Shown: piece by piece, positions 29,604-54,354 of the stretch
Numbering within the stretch: position 1 is the stretch's first letter
Layout: each line of letters begins with the position of its first letter
NCBI GenBank assembly: GCA_035651955.1
Contig: DASRES010000008.1
Location: 1 to 64,000, forward strand
Origin: Acidimicrobiia bacterium
GTDB taxonomy: Bacteria > Actinomycetota > Acidimicrobiia > IMCC26256 > JAMXLJ01
Length of the DNA stretch: 64,000 nt
Direction: 5' to 3'
Notes under the pieces: model-generated
Told to the model about the DNA's origin: nothing
The model's database searches: none
Seen by the model: only the letters and a program-made list of their open reading frames with translations
Program-made: the position numbers and the translations under genes

Positions 29604-29619
29604 GATAATGACCGTTATC
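29604..29619. promoter_or_regulatory. TetR operator overlapping the -10 (GATAA-N6-TTATC)
   Basis: GATAATGACCGTTATC is an inverted repeat with 5-bp arms, an AT-rich island in a very GC-rich region. It coincides with a -10 hexamer (GATAAT, 29604-29609) positioned 10 nt before the ATG at 29620. A regulator bound here would block its own promoter. Confidence 0.6.
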
Positions 29620-30213
29620 ATGGGACCGATGGCGATCGTGGACACCGGGACGACGCGTGAGCGGCTCGTCGCCGCGGCGATCGAGGTGTTCGTCGAGCAG
29701 GGCTACGAGCAGGCGCGCGTGCAGGACATCGCGCGCGCCGCGGGGCTGACGACCGGCGCCATCTACGCCAACTACCGCGGGAAGAGCGAGCTGCTCCTCG
29801 ACGCGATGACGGCGCGCGCGGATGCCGAGATGGACGCGCTGCTCCACGACGCCGGCGAGCACGAGACCCGCGAGCTCCTCGGCGTGCTCGGCGACCGGCT
29901 CGTCCAACGTCGCGGCCGGACCGCGCTCCTGCTCGACGCGATTGCCGCGTCACGCCGCGACCCACAGCTGGCCGAGTCGTTGCGCGAGCGCCTCGCGGAC
30001 CGCGAGGAGCTCGTCGCGACGCTGATCGCGCAGGGCAAGCGCGACGGCACCGTCGACGACGACGTCGACACCGCCACGTTCGCGCGGTTCTGCGTGATGC
30101 TGTCGCTCGGCGCCGTCGCGATGCGCGCGCTCGAGGCCGAGCCGCCCCCGCTCGACGACTGGCACTCGCTGATCACGCGCCTCCTCGACGCGTGTGGACC
30201 GGAGAACCGATGA
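29620..30213 (+). CDS. TetR/AcrR-family regulator
   Basis: A 197-residue TetR regulator. The DNA-binding domain is clear: RERLVAAAIEVFVEQGYEQA, then VQDIARAAGLTTGAIYANYRGKSELLLDAM (residues about 15-65). The rest is the all-helical ligand domain. Start choices are ATG 29608, 29620 and 29629; 29620 is preferred because it sits 10 nt after the GATAAT -10 and leaves the palindrome intact upstream. Its stop overlaps the ATG of the diiron gene (ATGATG), so both are translated together and the regulator probably controls that operon. Confidence 0.9.
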   Translation: MGPMAIVDTGTTRERLVAAAIEVFVEQGYEQARVQDIARAAGLTTGAIYANYRGKSELLLDAMTARADAEMDALLHDAGEHETRELLGVLGDRLVQRRGRTALLLDAIAASRRDPQLAESLRERLADREELVATLIAQGKRDGTVDDDVDTATFARFCVMLSLGAVAMRALEAEPPPLDDWHSLITRLLDACGPENR

Positions 30214-31301
30214 TGAACGAGCAGCTCGACACGATCCACTCGGTGCGCGCGACGTTCGACACGTTGTTCACGTGGGACTACGAGCAGAGCCGTCCCGCGC
30301 TCGTGAAGCTCTACGAGAAGGCGAAGACGTCGCAGTGGAACGCGTCGACCGATCTCGACTGGTCGGTCGACGTCGACCCGGAGAAGGTCGGCCAGGAGCT
30401 CGGGGGCGGGAACGCGACGATGCGGTTCAAGGCGCTGGCCGAGGTGGACGGATCGCCCGTCCGTCACTTCGGTGACGCGGACTGGACCCGGGTCTCGGTG
30501 GAGCTGCAGAACTCGTTGCTCTCGCAGTTCATGCACGGGGAGCAGGGCGCGCTGCTGTGCACCGCTCGCATCGTCGAGACGGTGCCGTGGATCGACGCGA
30601 AGTACTACGCGGCGACGCAGGTGATGGACGAGGCGCGCCACGTCGAGGTGTTCGCGCGGTACCTCGACGAGAAGCTCGGTCACCAGTACGGGATCAACCC
30701 GAACCTCGAGGGCATCCTCGACGAGATCCTCGCCGACCCGCGCTGGGACATCGCGTACCTCGGCATGCAGATCATGGTCGAGGGCCTCGCGCTCGCGGCG
30801 TTCGGGCTGATGCACCAGATGACGAGCGAGCCGCTGCTGAAGCGGATGCTGCGCTACGTGATGAGCGACGAGGCCCGTCACGTCGCGTTCGGCGTCCTGT
30901 CGTTGCAGGAGTACTACCGCGGGCTGTCCGACCGTGAGCTGCGGGAGCGGCAGGAGTTCGCGTTCGAGGTCGCGCGCCGTCTGCAGCGCCGGTTCATGCA
31001 CACGGAGATGTGGGAGCGGCTCGGTGTCGACGCCGAGGCGCTGTACCGCGCGATGGACCAGACGCGGCCCGCCGCACAACAGATGTTCCAGCAGATGCTG
31101 TTCTCGAAGATCGTGCCGAACTGCAAGAAGCTCGGGCTGCTCGACGCGTCGGGTGGCTGGCTGCGCGAGCGGTTCACGGAGATCGGTGTCATCCAGTTCG
31201 AGGACTGGGCCGACACCGGCGAGGAGTACGCCGTGCTCGACGAGGTCGCGCGCGACCGCGACGCTGCCACGGCGCGCGACCGCGACGCGGCGACGGCATA
31301 G
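30210..31301 (+). CDS. Ferritin-like diiron-carboxylate protein
   Basis: A 363-residue helical protein with a complete diiron ligand set: Glu111 (HGEQGAL), Glu141/His144 (MDEARHVEVF), Glu191 (MVEGLALAAFG) and Glu221/His224 (SDEARHVAFG), the E, ExxH, E, ExxH pattern of ferritin-like oxygenases and R2-like proteins. An aromatic-rich region of about 100 residues precedes it. GGAGAA lies 6 nt before the ATG at 30210. The extreme C-terminus contains a direct duplication (DRDAATAR twice). Probably an O2-activating oxygenase or oxidase; N-oxygenase, desaturase or R2-like oxidase roles are all open. Under TetR control by position. Confidence 0.85.
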   Translation: MMNEQLDTIHSVRATFDTLFTWDYEQSRPALVKLYEKAKTSQWNASTDLDWSVDVDPEKVGQELGGGNATMRFKALAEVDGSPVRHFGDADWTRVSVELQNSLLSQFMHGEQGALLCTARIVETVPWIDAKYYAATQVMDEARHVEVFARYLDEKLGHQYGINPNLEGILDEILADPRWDIAYLGMQIMVEGLALAAFGLMHQMTSEPLLKRMLRYVMSDEARHVAFGVLSLQEYYRGLSDRELRERQEFAFEVARRLQRRFMHTEMWERLGVDAEALYRAMDQTRPAAQQMFQQMLFSKIVPNCKKLGLLDASGGWLRERFTEIGVIQFEDWADTGEEYAVLDEVARDRDAATARDRDAATA

Positions 31302-31313
31302 GAGGCGGGCCCG

Positions 31314-31394
31314 GTGGACGCGCTCTCGACGTTCTTCGTCGTCCTGATCCTGCTGCTCTCCGCCGTGACGCTCGTCGTCGGGCTGCGGAGCTGA
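31314..31394 (+). CDS. 26-residue single-pass membrane peptide
   Basis: A very short frame, GTG 31314 to TGA 31394: a four-residue N-terminus, a 20-residue hydrophobic helix (FFVVLILLLSAVTLVVG) and a basic LRS end. GGAGG at 31301-31305 lies 8 nt before the GTG, a strong ribosome-binding site in a region where such sites are uncommon, and the gene starts 12 bp after the diiron protein stop. Likely a genuine small membrane protein of the TetR-diiron operon, perhaps anchoring or assisting the oxygenase; function is unknown. Confidence 0.55.
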   Translation: MDALSTFFVVLILLLSAVTLVVGLRS

Positions 31395-31403
31395 TCGCCC
31401 GCG

Positions 31404-31595
31404 TCAGGCGGTGCGCGCCTCGAGCGCCTCGAGGCGCTCGGCCAACTCGGCGATCACGACGGCGAGCTCACCCGTCAGCTCCGTGACGATCGTGAGGACG
31501 ATCGCGGTCAGCTCGGCGACGTCCTCCTCGGTCGCCTTGCGGTGACCGCGGTGCAGCGCGTCGTGCAGGCGTTCCCGGATGTGGTGTTCCTCCAT
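31404..31595 (-). CDS. Small coiled-coil protein
   Basis: A 63-residue hydrophilic protein. Apart from a His/Arg-rich start (MEEHHIRERLHDALHRGHRK), heptad-like spacing of Leu, Ile and Val in VAELTAIVLTIVTELTGELAVVIAELAERLEALEA suggests one long coiled coil. ATG at 31595. Convergent with the micropeptide. No family recognised; might be an oligomerising scaffold. Confidence 0.55.
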   Translation of the reverse strand: MEEHHIRERLHDALHRGHRKATEEDVAELTAIVLTIVTELTGELAVVIAELAERLEALEARTA

Positions 31596-31694
31596 GGCGT
31601 GGGAGCCTAGGCCGTCGCGCGTTGTGACGACCTTTGGGACGTGAGCGGGACAGGGGACCGTCCGTCTCCCAGAGTTCGGAGGGAACGGGATCCG

Positions 31695-32597
31695 GTGGAC
31701 GTCGCAGTGACCGTCGTGTCACCCGAGCGGGTGCGCTCGTGGACGGCCGAGGCGCGCGCGTACGAGGCGGCCGGGTTCGGTGCGCTCTACGTCCCCGACC
31801 ACGTCGGCCTCGTCGACCCGTTCGCCGCACTCGGTGCCGCGGCGGCCGTCGCCGAGCGCATGCGCGTCGGCACGTACGTCCTCAACGTCGCGTTCTGGAA
31901 CCCGCTGCTCCTCGCCCGCGCGGCGTCGACTGTCGCGGCCATCTCCGCGGGCGGCTTCGACCTCGGACTCGGCGCGGGTCACGCACAGGTCGAGTTCGAA
32001 CAGGCGGGCCTGCGCTATCCGCCCGCCGGTGAACGCGTGGACCGGCTCGCCGCGACCGTCGACGTCGTCGCCCGGCTGCTCGACGGTCAAACCGTCGACG
32101 ACGAGCGCTTCGCGCTGCGCGGCGCGTCGCTCGGTCGGGTCGCGACGCCCGCGCGGATCGTCGTCGGCGGGAACGGCGACCGTGTGCTGCGCGTCGCGGG
32201 GGAGCGCGCGGGTGCGGTCGGGCTCGTCGGCGTGACGTCGGGAACCGGGCAGGTCCACACGAACCTCTCGCACTGGACGTGGGGTGGGCTCGCGGACCGG
32301 ATCGCGCTCGTCGAGCGCGCGGCCGCCGCGGCCGGGCGCGTGACGCCCGTCGCGCGCACGGTTCTGGTGCAGCGCGTCGTCGTGACCGACGACCGTCGCG
32401 CAACAGCACGCGAGCTCGCAGAGCTCACCGGCACGCCGGCCGACGCCCACCTCGACAGCCCGTTCGTGCTCCTGGGCACGGAGCACGAGATTCTCGACCA
32501 GCTGCACCGCCTCCGCGACGAAGCCGCGATCGACACCGTGACGGTGTTCGACCGCGACGCCGGCACGATCGCGCCGCTGCTCCCGTCGCTCGCGTGA
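31695..32597 (+). CDS. Luciferase-like (LLM) F420-type oxidoreductase
   Basis: A 300-residue TIM-barrel flavin/F420-dependent oxidoreductase. DVAVTVVSPERVRSWTAEAR, AAGFGALYVPDHVGLVDPFAALGAAAA and MRVGTYVLNVAFWNPLLLARAASTVAAISAGGFDLGLGAGHAQVEF follow the LLM family layout, then a second half with FTVGGNGDR-like IVVGGNGDRVLRVAGERA. GTG 31695 is preferred over 31641 because GGAGGGA lies about 10 nt upstream. Likely uses coenzyme F420, in keeping with the second LLM gene and the Ddn-type protein nearby. Substrate unknown. Confidence 0.88.
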   Translation: MDVAVTVVSPERVRSWTAEARAYEAAGFGALYVPDHVGLVDPFAALGAAAAVAERMRVGTYVLNVAFWNPLLLARAASTVAAISAGGFDLGLGAGHAQVEFEQAGLRYPPAGERVDRLAATVDVVARLLDGQTVDDERFALRGASLGRVATPARIVVGGNGDRVLRVAGERAGAVGLVGVTSGTGQVHTNLSHWTWGGLADRIALVERAAAAAGRVTPVARTVLVQRVVVTDDRRATARELAELTGTPADAHLDSPFVLLGTEHEILDQLHRLRDEAAIDTVTVFDRDAGTIAPLLPSLA

Positions 32598-32646
32598 CGG
32601 CCGCGCTGAGGCTTCGACCATCCACGGTCGGTGGGAGGCGCGTCGG

Positions 32647-32652
32647 TAGCAT
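32647..32652 (+). promoter_or_regulatory. -10 element (TAGCAT) of the kinase gene
   Basis: TAGCAT followed by 8 nt and GTG 32661, without a ribosome-binding site; leaderless start predicted. Confidence 0.5.
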
Positions 32653-32660
32653 TCCGGCCC

Positions 32661-33506
32661 GTGGGAATGACGCTCGGGCGGCGTTACGAGCTGCGGGCGC
32701 CGTTGGGTACGGGGTCCATGGCGCAGGTCGTCGAGGCGCACGACGTCGTGCTCGACCGCGACGTCGCGATCAAGCTGCTGCGGACCGAGAGCGCGGACGC
32801 CGAGGGGATCGCGCGCTTCGTGAGGGAGGCGCGCGTCGCCGCGAGCCTGAGTCACCCGAACGTCGTGCGCATCTTCGACGCCGGCGAGGAGGGGGGCCGG
32901 CTCTACCTCGTCATGGAGCTCGTCCGCGGCCCGAACCTCGCGTACGTGCTCAAGCGGGTCGGGCCGTTGAGCGTGCGGCAGGCCGTCGCGCTGACCGACC
33001 AGGTGCTCGGCGCGCTCGCCGCCGCGCACGAGCGCGGGCTCGTCCACCGCGACGTGAAGCCGGGCAACATCCTCTTCGCCGACGACCGCACCGTGAAGCT
33101 CGCCGACTTCGGGCTCGCCAAGACCGTGCAGGACCCGTCGTCGGCCGTCACCCGTCCCGGTCAGGTCGTCGGCACGCCGATGTACCTCGCGCCCGAGCGC
33201 TCGGAGGGCCGTCTCGCGTCGCCGGCGTCCGACCTCTACTCGGTCGGCATCGTCCTGTTCGAGATGCTCGCGGGCAAGCCGCCGTTCACGGGCCGGAGCC
33301 TGCTCGAGCTCGCGATGGCGCACCAGCAGGCCCCCGTCCCACCGATCCCGCGCACCGACGTCCCCGAGGCCGTCGAGGCGCTGATGCTGCACGCGCTCGC
33401 GTGCGACCCGGACGCACGCCCGTCGAGCGCACGCGCCATGCAGGACGCGCTGCGTCGCGCGACCCGTCCCGGGGTCGCGCCCCGTCTCGCCGCCGCGGGG
33501 TCGTAA
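32661..33506 (+). CDS. Soluble Ser/Thr protein kinase
   Basis: A 281-residue Hanks-type kinase with only the catalytic domain. The Gly loop is LGTGSMAQVVEAHD (residues about 15-28), Lys38 in VAIKLL, Glu56 in FVREAR, catalytic HRDVKPGN (Asp131), DFG at 149-151, and GTPMYLAPERSEGRLASPASDLYSVGIVLFEML for the activation segment. No membrane helix, PASTA or other sensor domain, unlike PknB-type kinases, so it is cytoplasmic. GTG 32661 (or ATG 32667). A long-loop terminator follows. Target proteins unknown. Confidence 0.92.
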   Translation: MGMTLGRRYELRAPLGTGSMAQVVEAHDVVLDRDVAIKLLRTESADAEGIARFVREARVAASLSHPNVVRIFDAGEEGGRLYLVMELVRGPNLAYVLKRVGPLSVRQAVALTDQVLGALAAAHERGLVHRDVKPGNILFADDRTVKLADFGLAKTVQDPSSAVTRPGQVVGTPMYLAPERSEGRLASPASDLYSVGIVLFEMLAGKPPFTGRSLLELAMAHQQAPVPPIPRTDVPEAVEALMLHALACDPDARPSSARAMQDALRRATRPGVAPRLAAAGS

Positions 33507-33516
33507 CTCCCCCGAC

Positions 33517-33565
33517 GTCCATGCGTCGCTGGACGTCGTCAGACGACGACGAACGACGCATGGAC
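33517..33565 (+). terminator. Stem-loop after the kinase gene
   Basis: GTCCATGCGTCG (33517-33528) pairs perfectly with CGACGCATGGAC (33554-33565); the 25-nt loop itself contains GTCGTC-AGAC-GACGAC. No U tract, as is common in high-GC actinobacteria. Confidence 0.6.
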
Positions 33566-33600
33566 GCAACGGCCGCTGGCCCGGGCGCGCTGCGCGCGGC

Positions 33601-33606
33601 TATGAC
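33601..33606 (+). promoter_or_regulatory. -10 element (TATGAC)
   Basis: TATGAC ends 6 nt before ATG 33613; leaderless start predicted. Confidence 0.4.
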
Positions 33607-33612
33607 CTTTCG

Positions 33613-34602
33613 ATGCTCCTGATGCGGTTCGCGATGCGGACGGCCGGGGGAGACGGCGCGACGCGCGCCGCGCTCTACCGGGCCGCGCTCGAGATGGCCG
33701 AGTGGGGCGAGCACAACGGGTGCATGTCGCTCGTCGTCTCGCAGCACCACGCCGCCGACGACGGGTACCTTCCGTCGCCGCTCGTGCTCGCGTCGGGCAT
33801 GGCCGCGGTGACCGAGACGACGCCGATCATGGTCGCCGCCCTGCTCGTCCTCTTCTACGAGCCCGTCAAGCTCGCGGAGGACATGGCGGTGCTCGACCTG
33901 ATGAGCAACGGCCGCGTCTCGTACACGATCGGGCTCGGCTACCGGGACGAGGAGTTCGAGCAGTTCGGTGTGGACAAGTCGCGACGCGCGCGGCTCGTCG
34001 AGGAGAGGATCGCGATCCTGCGCGCGGCGTGGACGGGCGAGCCGTTCGAGCACGACGGCCGGCGCGTCCGCGTCACGCCGGCGCCGCTCCAACCCGGCGG
34101 TCCGATGCTGATGGGCGGGGGCGGGACGCCGGGGGCGGCGCGCCGCGCGGCGCGTCTCGGCATGGCGTTCCTCGCCGACACGACCGACGACACGCTCGCG
34201 CAGGAGTACGAGGCCGAGGCGGCACGCGTCGGCGTCACCCCGGTCGGCTGCATGATCCCGCCGCCCGACTCGTCCACGTTCTTCGTCGCCGACGACCCCG
34301 ACCGCGCGTGGCACGAGCTCGGCCCGTACATGCTGAACGACGCGCGCGCGTACGCGGAGTGGAACCGCGGCCGCACGGGCATCGCGATGGTGACGTCCGC
34401 GTCCACGGTCGACGAGCTGCGCGCGGGCACCGCGTTCCGCGTGATCACGCCCGACGAGGCAGTCGCCACCATCCGGCGCGAGGGCGTGCTCCAGCTGCAG
34501 CCGCTCGTCGGCGGGTTGCCGCCCGATCTCGCCTGGCCCCACCTCGAGCTCGCGGCACGCGCGGTGGCGCGTGCAGGAGCCGCGACGGCGCCACCGGGGT
34601 AG
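33613..34602 (+). CDS. Luciferase-like (LLM) flavin oxidoreductase
   Basis: A 329-residue LLM-family protein, distinct from the one at 31695. MRFAMRTAGGDGATRAALYRAALEMAEWGEHNGCMSLVVSQHHAADDGYLPSPLVLASGMAAVT is the usual barrel start with a His-His pair. LDLMSNGRVSYTIGLGYRDEEFEQFG then RRARLVEERIAILRAAWTGEPFEHDGRRVRVTPAPLQP match flavin-dependent monooxygenases of this superfamily (the cited stretches are interrupted in the protein by other residues). ATG at 33613. Substrate unknown; adjacent DUF445 and phosphoesterase genes give no clue. Confidence 0.85.
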   Translation: MLLMRFAMRTAGGDGATRAALYRAALEMAEWGEHNGCMSLVVSQHHAADDGYLPSPLVLASGMAAVTETTPIMVAALLVLFYEPVKLAEDMAVLDLMSNGRVSYTIGLGYRDEEFEQFGVDKSRRARLVEERIAILRAAWTGEPFEHDGRRVRVTPAPLQPGGPMLMGGGGTPGAARRAARLGMAFLADTTDDTLAQEYEAEAARVGVTPVGCMIPPPDSSTFFVADDPDRAWHELGPYMLNDARAYAEWNRGRTGIAMVTSASTVDELRAGTAFRVITPDEAVATIRREGVLQLQPLVGGLPPDLAWPHLELAARAVARAGAATAPPG

Positions 34603-34605
34603 ACC
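34600..34605 (+). promoter_or_regulatory. -10 element (TAGACC) overlapping the upstream stop
   Basis: TAGACC includes the TAG stop of the preceding gene and is followed by 8 nt and GTG 34614; a compact leaderless promoter. Confidence 0.4.
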
Positions 34606-34613
34606 TTCGGGCA

Positions 34614-35879
34614 GTGAGCACCCCGGCGCCGCCCGCCGTCAGCTCGGAACCCGCGCGCCGTCACCGGCTGACGGTCACGAAGCGACGCGCGACCGCGCTG
34701 CTCGCCGGGGTCACGGTCGTGTTCCTCGTGGTGACGGCCCGGGGCGGCCACTCGACCTGGGCCGGCTACGTGCAGGCGGCCGCGGAGGCGTCCATGGTCG
34801 GCGGTCTCGCGGACTGGTTCGCGGTGACCGCGCTGTTCCGCCGGCCGCTCGGCCTGCCGATCCCGCACACCGCGATCGTCGTCGAGCGCAAGGACCAGTT
34901 CGCGGAGACGCTGGGCGACTTCATCCGGGAGAGCTTCCTGTCGCCTGACGCGCTGCTCGAACGGGTGCGGGCCGCGAACGTCGTCGACCGTCTCGCCACG
35001 TGGATGACGCAGCCCGCGAACGCGCAGCGCCTCGCCGGTGACGTCGCCGACGCCGCGACGACCGTCGTCGACCTGCTCCGCGACGACGACGTGCACACGA
35101 CGATCGAGGACCTCGTCCGCCGCCAGGTCGACGCGGTGCCGCTCGCGCCGATCGCCGGCCGCGCGCTGCGGCTCTTCACCGAGGACGGGCGTCACGAGAA
35201 GGCCCTCGACGCCGCGCTCCGGTCGCTCGACGCGTTCCTCGACGAGCACCGCGCCGACCTGCGGTCGCGGTTCCTCGCGCAGGCGCCGTGGTGGCTGCCG
35301 ATGTCGATCGAGGAGCGGATCTTCGACCGCCTGCTCGACGGCGCGCGCGACGCGCTGCACGAGATGGTCGGCGACCACGACAGCGCGCTCCGCCGGTACT
35401 TCGACACGCGTCTCGTGTCGTTCGCGGCCGAGCTCGAGACGTCGCCCTCGCTCCGCGCGCGCGGCGAGCAGCTCAAGTCGGACGTGCTCGCGCACCCGCA
35501 ACTGCGCGAGTGGGTCGCGTCCGCGTGGTCGGACGCCAAGGAACGACTGCGCGCGCAGGCAGCCGATCCGGGCTCCGAGCTGCGAGCGCGGACGGCTGCA
35601 CTGATCGCCGCTGCCGGCGCGCGCATGCGCGACGACCCGACCGTCGCCGGCGCGATCGACGACGCGACGGAGTCCGCCGTCCGCTACGTCGCGACCCACT
35701 TCGACGCCGAGATCCGCGGGCTCGTGACCGGCACGATCGCGCGCTGGGACGCCGACGAGACCGCCCGCCGGCTGGAGCTGCTGCTGGGCCCCGACCTCCA
35801 GTACATCCGCATCAACGGCACGGTCGTCGGCGCGCTCGCGGGTCTCGCGTTGCACGCGATCGCCGTCGCGCTCGGATGA
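34614..35879 (+). CDS. DUF445 family membrane-associated protein
   Basis: A 421-residue protein with one N-terminal membrane helix (ATALLAGVTVVFLVVTARGG) and one at the C-terminus (GTVVGALAGLALHAIAVAL). The diagnostic DUF445 block GGLADWFAVTALFRRPLGLP with IPHTAIVVERKDQFAETLGDF follows the first helix. The centre is long, amphipathic helices. GTG 34614. Family function is unknown; proteins of this kind appear to be envelope-associated. Confidence 0.88.
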   Translation: MSTPAPPAVSSEPARRHRLTVTKRRATALLAGVTVVFLVVTARGGHSTWAGYVQAAAEASMVGGLADWFAVTALFRRPLGLPIPHTAIVVERKDQFAETLGDFIRESFLSPDALLERVRAANVVDRLATWMTQPANAQRLAGDVADAATTVVDLLRDDDVHTTIEDLVRRQVDAVPLAPIAGRALRLFTEDGRHEKALDAALRSLDAFLDEHRADLRSRFLAQAPWWLPMSIEERIFDRLLDGARDALHEMVGDHDSALRRYFDTRLVSFAAELETSPSLRARGEQLKSDVLAHPQLREWVASAWSDAKERLRAQAADPGSELRARTAALIAAAGARMRDDPTVAGAIDDATESAVRYVATHFDAEIRGLVTGTIARWDADETARRLELLLGPDLQYIRINGTVVGALAGLALHAIAVALG

Positions 35880-52080: not shown

Positions 52081-52197
52081 CGCGCGCCCTGTTCCGCGGT
52101 GATCAGGGGACCCTAACGTGGCGCCGGCAGGTGGTCCCGGGCCGTGGCGCGCGACATCGGGGTCGGCGAGGGCACGACCGGGGACGGGGGCACGAGG

Positions 52198-54354
52198 GTG
52201 AGGCAGGGATCGAGCCCGGCGCGCAGCCGGCGGGCGCTGGGTGTGGTCGTCGCGACGACGACGTTCGTCGCGCTCCTGGGCCTGGCCGCCGCCCCGGCGT
52301 CCGCTGCCGGGCCGCGCCTGCTGCGCACGCCGTACCTGACGGACGCGTCTGCGTCGTCGATGCTCGTCAACTTCGCGACGGACACGCAGTCGCCCGCGCC
52401 GGTCGTGACGTACGGGACCGCGCGCGGGTCGTGCGGCACGTCCACGGTGACGGCCACCGGCAAGAGCATCACGGTCGGCACGGCGACCGCGTACCAGTGG
52501 GGGGCGCGCATCAACGGGCTGACCCCGGACACCGCGTACTGCTACCGCGTGCTGCAAGGGACGACCGACCTTCTCGCCGGTGCGGCACCGACGTTCCGCA
52601 CCGCGGCGGGTGCAGGCTCGGCGTTCTCGTTCGCGGTGATCGGCGACTGGGGTGCCGGCACGCCCGACGAGGCGAAGGTGTTCACGCAGATCGCGGCGAG
52701 CAATCCGAACTTCGTCGTGACGGTCGGCGACAACGCGTACAACGACGGCTCGCAGACCGACTACGGCGACGTCGACGGCGGCAACGTCTTCACGCCCGAC
52801 TACTGGGGCAAGATCGGCGCGACGACCCCGGGCTTCCCCGCGTTCGGGAACCACGGCTTCACGAACGGCAACGTGCACCTCGACGACTGGCCCGTCGACT
52901 CCGTGGTCGCGTCGTCGGGTGGCCGGTTCGGGCCGATGACGTACTGCTGCCTCACGCAGATGGCCGGGTCGAGGACGTACTCGGACGGTTGGTACGCGTT
53001 CGACTGGGGCAGCGCGCGCTTCTACGTGCTGCAGGCGGCGTGGGCCGACGGCACCGGTGGCTACCAGAGCGACTTCGAGGGCCACTGGTCGAACGGGATG
53101 CCCGGCTGCGGACCGTGCGGCGCGGAGATGCAGTGGCTGCAGCAGGACCTCGCGGCGCACGCCGACACGCCGATCAAGTTCGCGTTCTTCCACTACCCGC
53201 TCTACAGCGACAGCAGCCACGAGACGAGCGACCAGTTCCTCGAGGGGCAGAACGGTCTCGAGGGCGTGCTCGCGCGCGCGGGCGTGAACATCGTGTTCAA
53301 CGGGCACGCGCACTTCTACGAGCGCAACAAGCCGATGATCCCCGGTTCGCCGATGGTCAGCTACGTCACGGGCGGCGGTGGCGCCACGCCCGAGCCGCTC
53401 GACATGTGCAGCTCGTACGACGCGTTCGGCATCGGCAGCGGTGGCCGCACGTGCCCCTCCGGCAACACCACCTCGGCGTCCGTGTTCCACTTCCTCAAGG
53501 TCGACGTCGACAGCACGGGGATCACGGTCACGCCGATCGACGAGAACGGCACGCGCTTCGACGTGCAGCACTACGCCGTCAACGGCTCGCCGCCCCCGAC
53601 GACGACCTCGACCACGAGCAGCACGTCGACCAGCACGACGACCACGACCGCGCCTCCGGCCGGCGGCGCCTTGAGCGGCTGGACGCTCGACGGCTGGGGT
53701 GGCCTGCACGCCTTCGGGACGTCGGCCTCGGCCGTCACGATCACGAACGCGCCGTACTGGCCGGGGTGGGACATCGCGCGCGGCGTCGCGTTCTCGGGCC
53801 GCGGGTGGGGTGTCGTCGCCGACGGCTGGGGCGGCCTGCACACGTTCCTCGCCGGCGCCGGCAGCGCGCCCGTCATCACGTCGAACGCGTACTGGCGCGC
53901 GTGGGACATCGTCCGCGGCGTCGCGTTGATGCCCGACGGCTCCGGCGGCTTCGTGCTCGACGGCTGGGGTGGGCTGCACCCGTTCTCGATCGGTTCGGGG
54001 AAGGCGCCGACCGCGACCGGCGTGCCGTACTGGCCCGGGTGGGACATCGCGCGGGGCATCACGATCGACCCCTCCGGGAGGTTCGGCTACGTGATCGACG
54101 GGTGGGGTGGTCTCCACCCGTTCCGGATCGGGTCGTCGACGGTCGACCCGCCGCAGGTGACGGGCGCGCCGTACTGGCCGGGGTGGGACATCGCGCGCGG
54201 CGTCGCGCTCGCGCCCGACGGCACGAGCGGTGCGACCGTCGACGGCTGGGGCGGGCTCCACGCGTTCGCGGTCGGCTCGGGTGCACCGCCCGCGGCGCCG
54301 AGCGCGCCGTACTGGCCGGGGTGGGACATCGCGCGCGGCGTCGCGCTCCGCTGA
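52198..54354 (+). CDS. Secreted metallophosphoesterase with five DGWGGLH repeats
   Basis: A 718-residue exported protein. The start GTG 52198 gives a Sec-type signal peptide (RSRRALGVVVATTTFVALLG, cleavage after APASAA); GTG 52144 would add 18 residues. An Ig-like domain (RLLRTPYLTDASASSMLVNF) precedes the purple-acid-phosphatase core: AVIGDWGAGT, TVGDNAYNDG, FGNHGFTN, FFHYPLYSDS, FNGHAHFYERN. A Thr/Ser-rich linker follows (about 466-490), then five tandem repeats of 44-48 residues (about 498-718) each with DGWGGLHxF and PYWPGWDIARGV. These probably form a beta-rich, propeller-like binding domain. The catalytic half is a paralogue of the 48340-50889 protein. Confidence 0.9.
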   Translation: MRQGSSPARSRRALGVVVATTTFVALLGLAAAPASAAGPRLLRTPYLTDASASSMLVNFATDTQSPAPVVTYGTARGSCGTSTVTATGKSITVGTATAYQWGARINGLTPDTAYCYRVLQGTTDLLAGAAPTFRTAAGAGSAFSFAVIGDWGAGTPDEAKVFTQIAASNPNFVVTVGDNAYNDGSQTDYGDVDGGNVFTPDYWGKIGATTPGFPAFGNHGFTNGNVHLDDWPVDSVVASSGGRFGPMTYCCLTQMAGSRTYSDGWYAFDWGSARFYVLQAAWADGTGGYQSDFEGHWSNGMPGCGPCGAEMQWLQQDLAAHADTPIKFAFFHYPLYSDSSHETSDQFLEGQNGLEGVLARAGVNIVFNGHAHFYERNKPMIPGSPMVSYVTGGGGATPEPLDMCSSYDAFGIGSGGRTCPSGNTTSASVFHFLKVDVDSTGITVTPIDENGTRFDVQHYAVNGSPPPTTTSTTSSTSTSTTTTTAPPAGGALSGWTLDGWGGLHAFGTSASAVTITNAPYWPGWDIARGVAFSGRGWGVVADGWGGLHTFLAGAGSAPVITSNAYWRAWDIVRGVALMPDGSGGFVLDGWGGLHPFSIGSGKAPTATGVPYWPGWDIARGITIDPSGRFGYVIDGWGGLHPFRIGSSTVDPPQVTGAPYWPGWDIARGVALAPDGTSGATVDGWGGLHAFAVGSGAPPAAPSAPYWPGWDIARGVALR
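53689..54351 (+). repeat. Five tandem ~135-bp coding repeats (DGWGGLH)
   Basis: Repeat starts at codons for DGWGGLH: LDGWGGLHAF, ADGWGGLHTF, LDGWGGLHPF, IDGWGGLHPF and VDGWGGLHAF, each followed by PYWPGWDIARGV (the second reads AYWRAWDIVRGV). Repeat length is 44-48 residues. The fifth ends at the stop codon. Confidence 0.9.

Follow-up and report, generated by a model that had tools for sequence, protein, structure and literature searches.

The window, i.e. the whole stretch of 64,000 nucleotides that was analysed, is part of a 4.1 Mb draft genome of 92 contigs. The closest named sequences that match it come from Acidimicrobiia and other actinobacterial MAGs. On the forward strand a TetR gene, a ferritin-like diiron gene and a 26-codon hydrophobic frame follow each other in this order. 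The ATG of the diiron gene at 30210 overlaps the TetR stop at 30211-30213 (ATGA). The diiron gene ends with TAG at 31299-31301, and from there it is 12 nucleotides to the GTG of the short frame. The original prediction placed all three in one operon. The pair formed by the first two genes is real, and they match the Pfam families TetR_N and AurF. The features are:

29604-29619, no strand: palindrome GATAATGACCGTTATC, proposed TetR operator, overlapping the promoter region, with 0 mismatches to GATAAN6TTATC
29629-30213, forward strand: TetR-family regulator (Pfam TetR_N, 3.8e-13); a start at 29620 is also possible
30210-31301, forward strand: ferritin-like diiron protein of the R2 fold, 363 residues, a probable oxygenase (Pfam AurF, ligands, fold)
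31248-31295, forward strand: 24-bp tandem duplication (copies 92% identical), giving a longer C-terminus of the diiron protein (ARDRDAAT twice)
31301-31305, forward strand: GGAGG Shine-Dalgarno sequence, read from the sequence, 8 nucleotides 5' of the GTG
31314-31394, forward strand: 26-codon frame of a putative single-span membrane peptide, lineage-specific (G or C in 26/26 third codon positions, KD 3.17, codon score)

The TetR regulator and its palindrome

The regulator matches the TetR_N helix-turn-helix domain at 49.4 bits (cutoff 24, 3.8e-13). Its frame contains ATG codons at 29608, 29620 and 29629; because the first of these falls within the conserved palindrome at 29604-29619, translation probably starts at 29629. 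The regulator shares the TetR fold with FadR of the Bacillus type, which responds to acyl-CoA or lipids, but its score against the NCBIfam FadR model, 43.3 bits, is far under the equivalog cutoff of 200.

The diiron loci of relatives, 114 rows in total, were de-duplicated by their last 90 nucleotides to 103 distinct loci, 102 besides the window. TetR adjoins the diiron gene in 34 of these 102; among the 15 closest it does so in 13. In the other 68 the criterion used finds no TetR next to the enzyme. Among the 34 TetR-linked loci, from which the locus of the window itself (L031, in a truncated row with 3 operator mismatches, against 0 in the window) is left out, GATAAN6TTATC precedes the TetR gene exactly in 14, with at most one mismatch in 27 and with at most two in 31. 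In shuffled regions the corresponding frequencies are 0, 0.24% and 4.1%. For 66 of the 68 loci without TetR there was enough upstream sequence for the same count, and the 400 nucleotides before the enzyme contain no exact site (0/66) and a site with one mismatch in two cases. Within this genome the site at 29604-29619 is unique, both at 0 and at up to one mismatch.

The palindrome ends 9 nucleotides upstream of the probable TetR start, in the promoter region, which is a usual place for a repressor site. The promoter-like match in the window is modest (9/12), and a leaderless TetR mRNA is possible. Judged by its position and conservation, the palindrome is proposed as the operator of the TetR regulator, which suggests an autoregulated operon.

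A second palindrome-like site, of the type GATAAT, 4 nucleotides, GTTATG, was observed in four relatives (L163, L164, L165 and L166). There it precedes a gene for a SnoaL-like small protein and/or an alpha/beta-hydrolase-like gene, both named by eye.

The diiron enzyme and its neighbours

The metal ligands claimed for the ferritin-like protein, E/ExxH/E/ExxH, form a complete set: E111, E141 and H144 (E141xxH144), E191, and E221 and H224 (E221xxH224) are invariant in 42 sequences. Together with matches to the four-helix core fold, they give the protein the features of a ferritin-like diiron carboxylate protein with a predicted metal site. Pfam AurF (PF11583) recognises it barely above the gathering cutoff (31.9 against 29.6 bits). 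Its AlphaFold model (pLDDT 83.8, pTM 0.83) finds its best Foldseek matches in R2lox (E 1.4e-4). The VIA-align Z values are 22.1 for RNR R2, 21.9 for R2lox and 20.9 for AurF, so that the three folds are too close to be told apart by much. The enzyme is a probable oxygenase. Relatives are common, being found in 57 of 61 near genomes and, at 1e-30, in 38 of 296 genomes across the phylum. Literature searches brought up no paper on this family.

R2lox shares with the enzyme both the fold (Z 21.9 for 7qbp, 21.8 for 7qbk) and the E/ExxH/E/ExxH ligand pattern. However, the positions of the Val-Tyr crosslink of R2lox correspond to Ala114 and Met186 in a weak alignment to 7qbk (25.4 bits), and the best score against the R2lox NCBIfam model is 42.4 bits, with a cutoff of 194. 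V72 and Y162, of which mutants are named in PDB titles, are the crosslink residues. Given these crosslink positions and the family score, we rejected filing the enzyme as R2lox.

The other comparison is with the arylamine N-oxygenases AurF and CmlI (PF11583). AurF has an extra histidine ligand. Its structure (2jcd) matches the enzyme with a Z of 20.9 and 3.5 Å over 288 residues, but the identity is 13%, and some orthologues of the enzyme adjoin acyl-CoA genes, unlike the arylamine pathway of AurF and CmlI.

At four loci (L037, L119, L120 and L122) the gene after the enzyme reads, by eye, as an acyl-CoA ligase. At L119 Pfam identifies behind the enzyme an AMP-binding ligase, then an SDR, and then a MaoC/MFE-2 hydratase. 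In the present genome and its genus-mate, the enzyme gene is not followed by these ligase, SDR and MaoC genes. In the window, the opposite strand carries a nitroreductase-family gene and an acyl-CoA dehydrogenase gene upstream. A Rhodococcus protein that is 46% identical to the enzyme is followed by the ferredoxin gene fdxA, which makes FdxA a possible electron donor. Further, GkR2loxI is reported to be an alkane monooxygenase (PMC10867098), which may serve as no more than a lead to the substrate of the enzyme. The palindrome, the metal ligands, the R2-like fold and the ligase/SDR/MaoC genes of some relatives together suggest that the TetR-diiron pair is an autoregulated lipid-oxidation operon.

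The short frame behind the enzyme gene

The short frame starts with GTG at 31314, stops with TGA at 31392-31394 and encodes the 26 residues VDALSTFFVVLILLLSAVTLVVGLRS. A strong GGAGG site had been predicted before it, and this is found at 31301-31305. All 26 third codon positions are G or C. With one hydrophobic segment, a ribosome-binding site and coding composition, the peptide has the features of small single-span membrane proteins, and it matches no Pfam or NCBIfam family.

The background was taken from 394 kb of the same genome with 270 gene ends, and 81 small frames start at most 60 nucleotides from one of these; genes were called by our own GC3 rule and no gene finder. Seven of these frames, among them the peptide frame, have a Shine-Dalgarno match, and the peptide frame overlaps no called gene. 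It ranks first of the 81 by hydrophobicity (15-residue KD 3.17), and neither 100,000 Markov sequences nor 20,000 shuffled versions of the region contained a frame of KD at least 3.0; these comparisons concern a frame that was picked after being seen. Its synonymous codon score, which disregards the choice of amino acids, is 10.6. Of the real-gene windows (n = 1903) 27% score this high, of the antisense windows (n = 1903) 0.95%, and of the windows in other frames (n = 3806) 1.05%. Composition and ribosome-binding site thus agree with the original prediction of a small gene below ordinary gene-calling size behind the diiron gene: the frame is probably coding and its product translated.

It is unlikely that the frame arose by chance in the short gap between two convergent genes and stays untranslated. 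A scan of both strands for short frames with KD at least 2.5, a Shine-Dalgarno match and GC3 at least 0.8 returned two, the peptide frame and an equally hydrophobic one at 53571-53645 on the reverse strand. The latter lies antisense within the gene at 52144-54354 on the forward strand and is probably a spurious shadow. Such frames can therefore arise without function, and the missing conservation described below also fits a chance origin. Against it stand the first rank without gene overlap, the absence of such frames from the 100,000 simulated sequences and a codon score that about 1% of non-coding frames reach. A type I toxin-like peptide was considered as a reading of the short frame.

The DNA similarity between the window and its genus-mate (G001) stops at 31295, at the end of the diiron gene. 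Beyond this point the window has a 63-residue gene, a kinase-like gene and a DUF445-like gene, whose order is reversed in the genus-mate. The peptide therefore lies at a junction that differs within the genus, as seen from one genus-mate. The ARDRDAAT-type duplication of the tail is absent from the other diiron tails displayed. No terminator-like site was found between the enzyme gene and the peptide frame.

The 63-residue gene (31404-31595, reverse strand) is convergent and encodes a helical small protein with no Pfam family above cutoff. Its relatives are 78-79% identical in the genus-mate and 62% in G020, and there are five matches in G037. Further on, 31641-35879 holds a kinase-like frame flanked by a luciferase-like monooxygenase and a second similar frame, as well as the DUF445-like gene (the kinase-like, second similar and DUF445-like frames named by eye), in a gene order unlike that of the genus-mate. 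We rejected a tie between the peptide and the 63-residue gene, since no similar frame lies beside the relatives of this gene in G001, G020 and G037; the G020 copy has a 57-residue frame (KD 2.51) on the other strand, unlike the peptide and with no Shine-Dalgarno match. That the peptide is an antisense shadow of the acidic tail of the 63-residue protein was also rejected, since the proteins of the relatives stop at nearly the same residue, and the antisense codon score is low.

We scanned frames of 15-60 residues starting from 40 nucleotides before to 250 nucleotides after the enzyme stop. A comparable frame (KD at least 2.0, start at most 250 nucleotides from the stop) is found in 0 of the 102 other distinct diiron loci, where the two best frames reach KD 1.97 and 1.96. 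Hence it is missing from all 15 closest loci (73.5-84% identity), from all 34 with an adjacent TetR, from the one genus-mate examined (enzyme 82% identical) and from the two diiron paralogues of the same genome. Neither of these paralogues (L034 and L036, on G000 contigs C70 and C87; 67% and 60% identity) adjoins a TetR gene by the adjacency criterion applied. In 58 genomes of the order, tblastn at E up to 0.05 returned the copy in the window alone, and a similarity search in 61 relatives returned the peptide itself and two weak matches (E 0.23 and 0.34) within long frames. The positional scan carries the weight of the absence, because tblastn with 26 residues is insensitive (the self match has 37 bits).

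The original prediction linked the peptide to the enzyme, which it might recruit to the membrane or modulate, and proposed a look downstream of orthologous diiron genes. There the frame is not conserved, which is the outcome it had named as speaking against the link, and a role of the peptide with the enzyme gains no support from the comparison. In these relatives the enzyme evidently exists without the peptide, given that the frame is absent behind it. Membrane recruitment as a general mechanism was rejected for the same reason, and the frame does not accompany the orthologous enzymes as a conserved accessory subunit would.

A lineage-specific accessory, which anchors or modulates the enzyme at the membrane near its lipid substrate and electron donor, is quite unlikely. 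The position 12 nucleotides behind the enzyme gene, the GGAGG of its own, the lack of a terminator-like site between the two and the coding-like codons are in its favour. So is the fact that known enzyme subunits include small single-span peptides, for example CydX (PMC4325964). Against it is the absence of the frame from all the other loci, including those of the genus-mate and the paralogues. Hardly likely, too, is that a new-born micropeptide was captured by the TetR-controlled diiron operon in one lineage of Acidimicrobiia and tethers an otherwise soluble enzyme to the membrane. A remnant of a larger membrane gene brought to the breakpoint is very improbable: the peptide does sit at the end of synteny with the genus-mate, but it matches no Pfam or NCBIfam family, the matches to long frames are weak (E 0.23-0.34), and start, Shine-Dalgarno sequence and stop are all complete.

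The operon and known small membrane proteins

The account that we consider likely is a TetR-diiron operon that is conserved and, at its 3' end, carries an orphan peptide specific to this lineage. From sequence comparison, the peptide is best read as an orphan among small membrane proteins that is probably translated, and not as a conserved partner of the enzyme. The operon itself is ordinary and conserved.

In this account, the genes of the TetR repressor and the R2-fold diiron oxygenase would make up a translationally coupled operon that is conserved in Acidimicrobiia. Most likely the repressor sits on the palindrome that overlaps its promoter until a hydrophobic or CoA-linked ligand releases it, and the oxygenase would then be produced in the presence of a lipid or acyl-CoA-like substrate. 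In this lineage, a rearrangement just 3' of the oxygenase gene may have left, or let arise, the 26-codon frame and the ribosome-binding site before it. The frame is probably transcribed together with the operon and translated into a single-span membrane peptide, with a predicted N-out, C-in topology given Asp2 and Arg25.

An orphan peptide with a clean gene-like signature and no conservation illustrates where guilt by operon has its limits. The more lasting result is a widespread R2-fold diiron clade in which the TetR palindrome is conserved; this makes the ligand and substrate class of the clade testable.

Small single-span membrane proteins are a recognised and under-annotated class. They are easily missed by annotation (PMC7549839, PMC4325964, PMC10903887), and they include YohP (27 residues) and CydX (37 residues) of E. 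coli (PMC7549839, PMC4325964). While YohP and CydX have been studied experimentally, the present peptide is predicted from its sequence and is not conserved. The likeness is one of size and hydrophobicity: the peptide falls in the same size class as YohP and CydX and, like them, has one predicted hydrophobic helix (PMC7549839, PMC4325964, PMC10903887).
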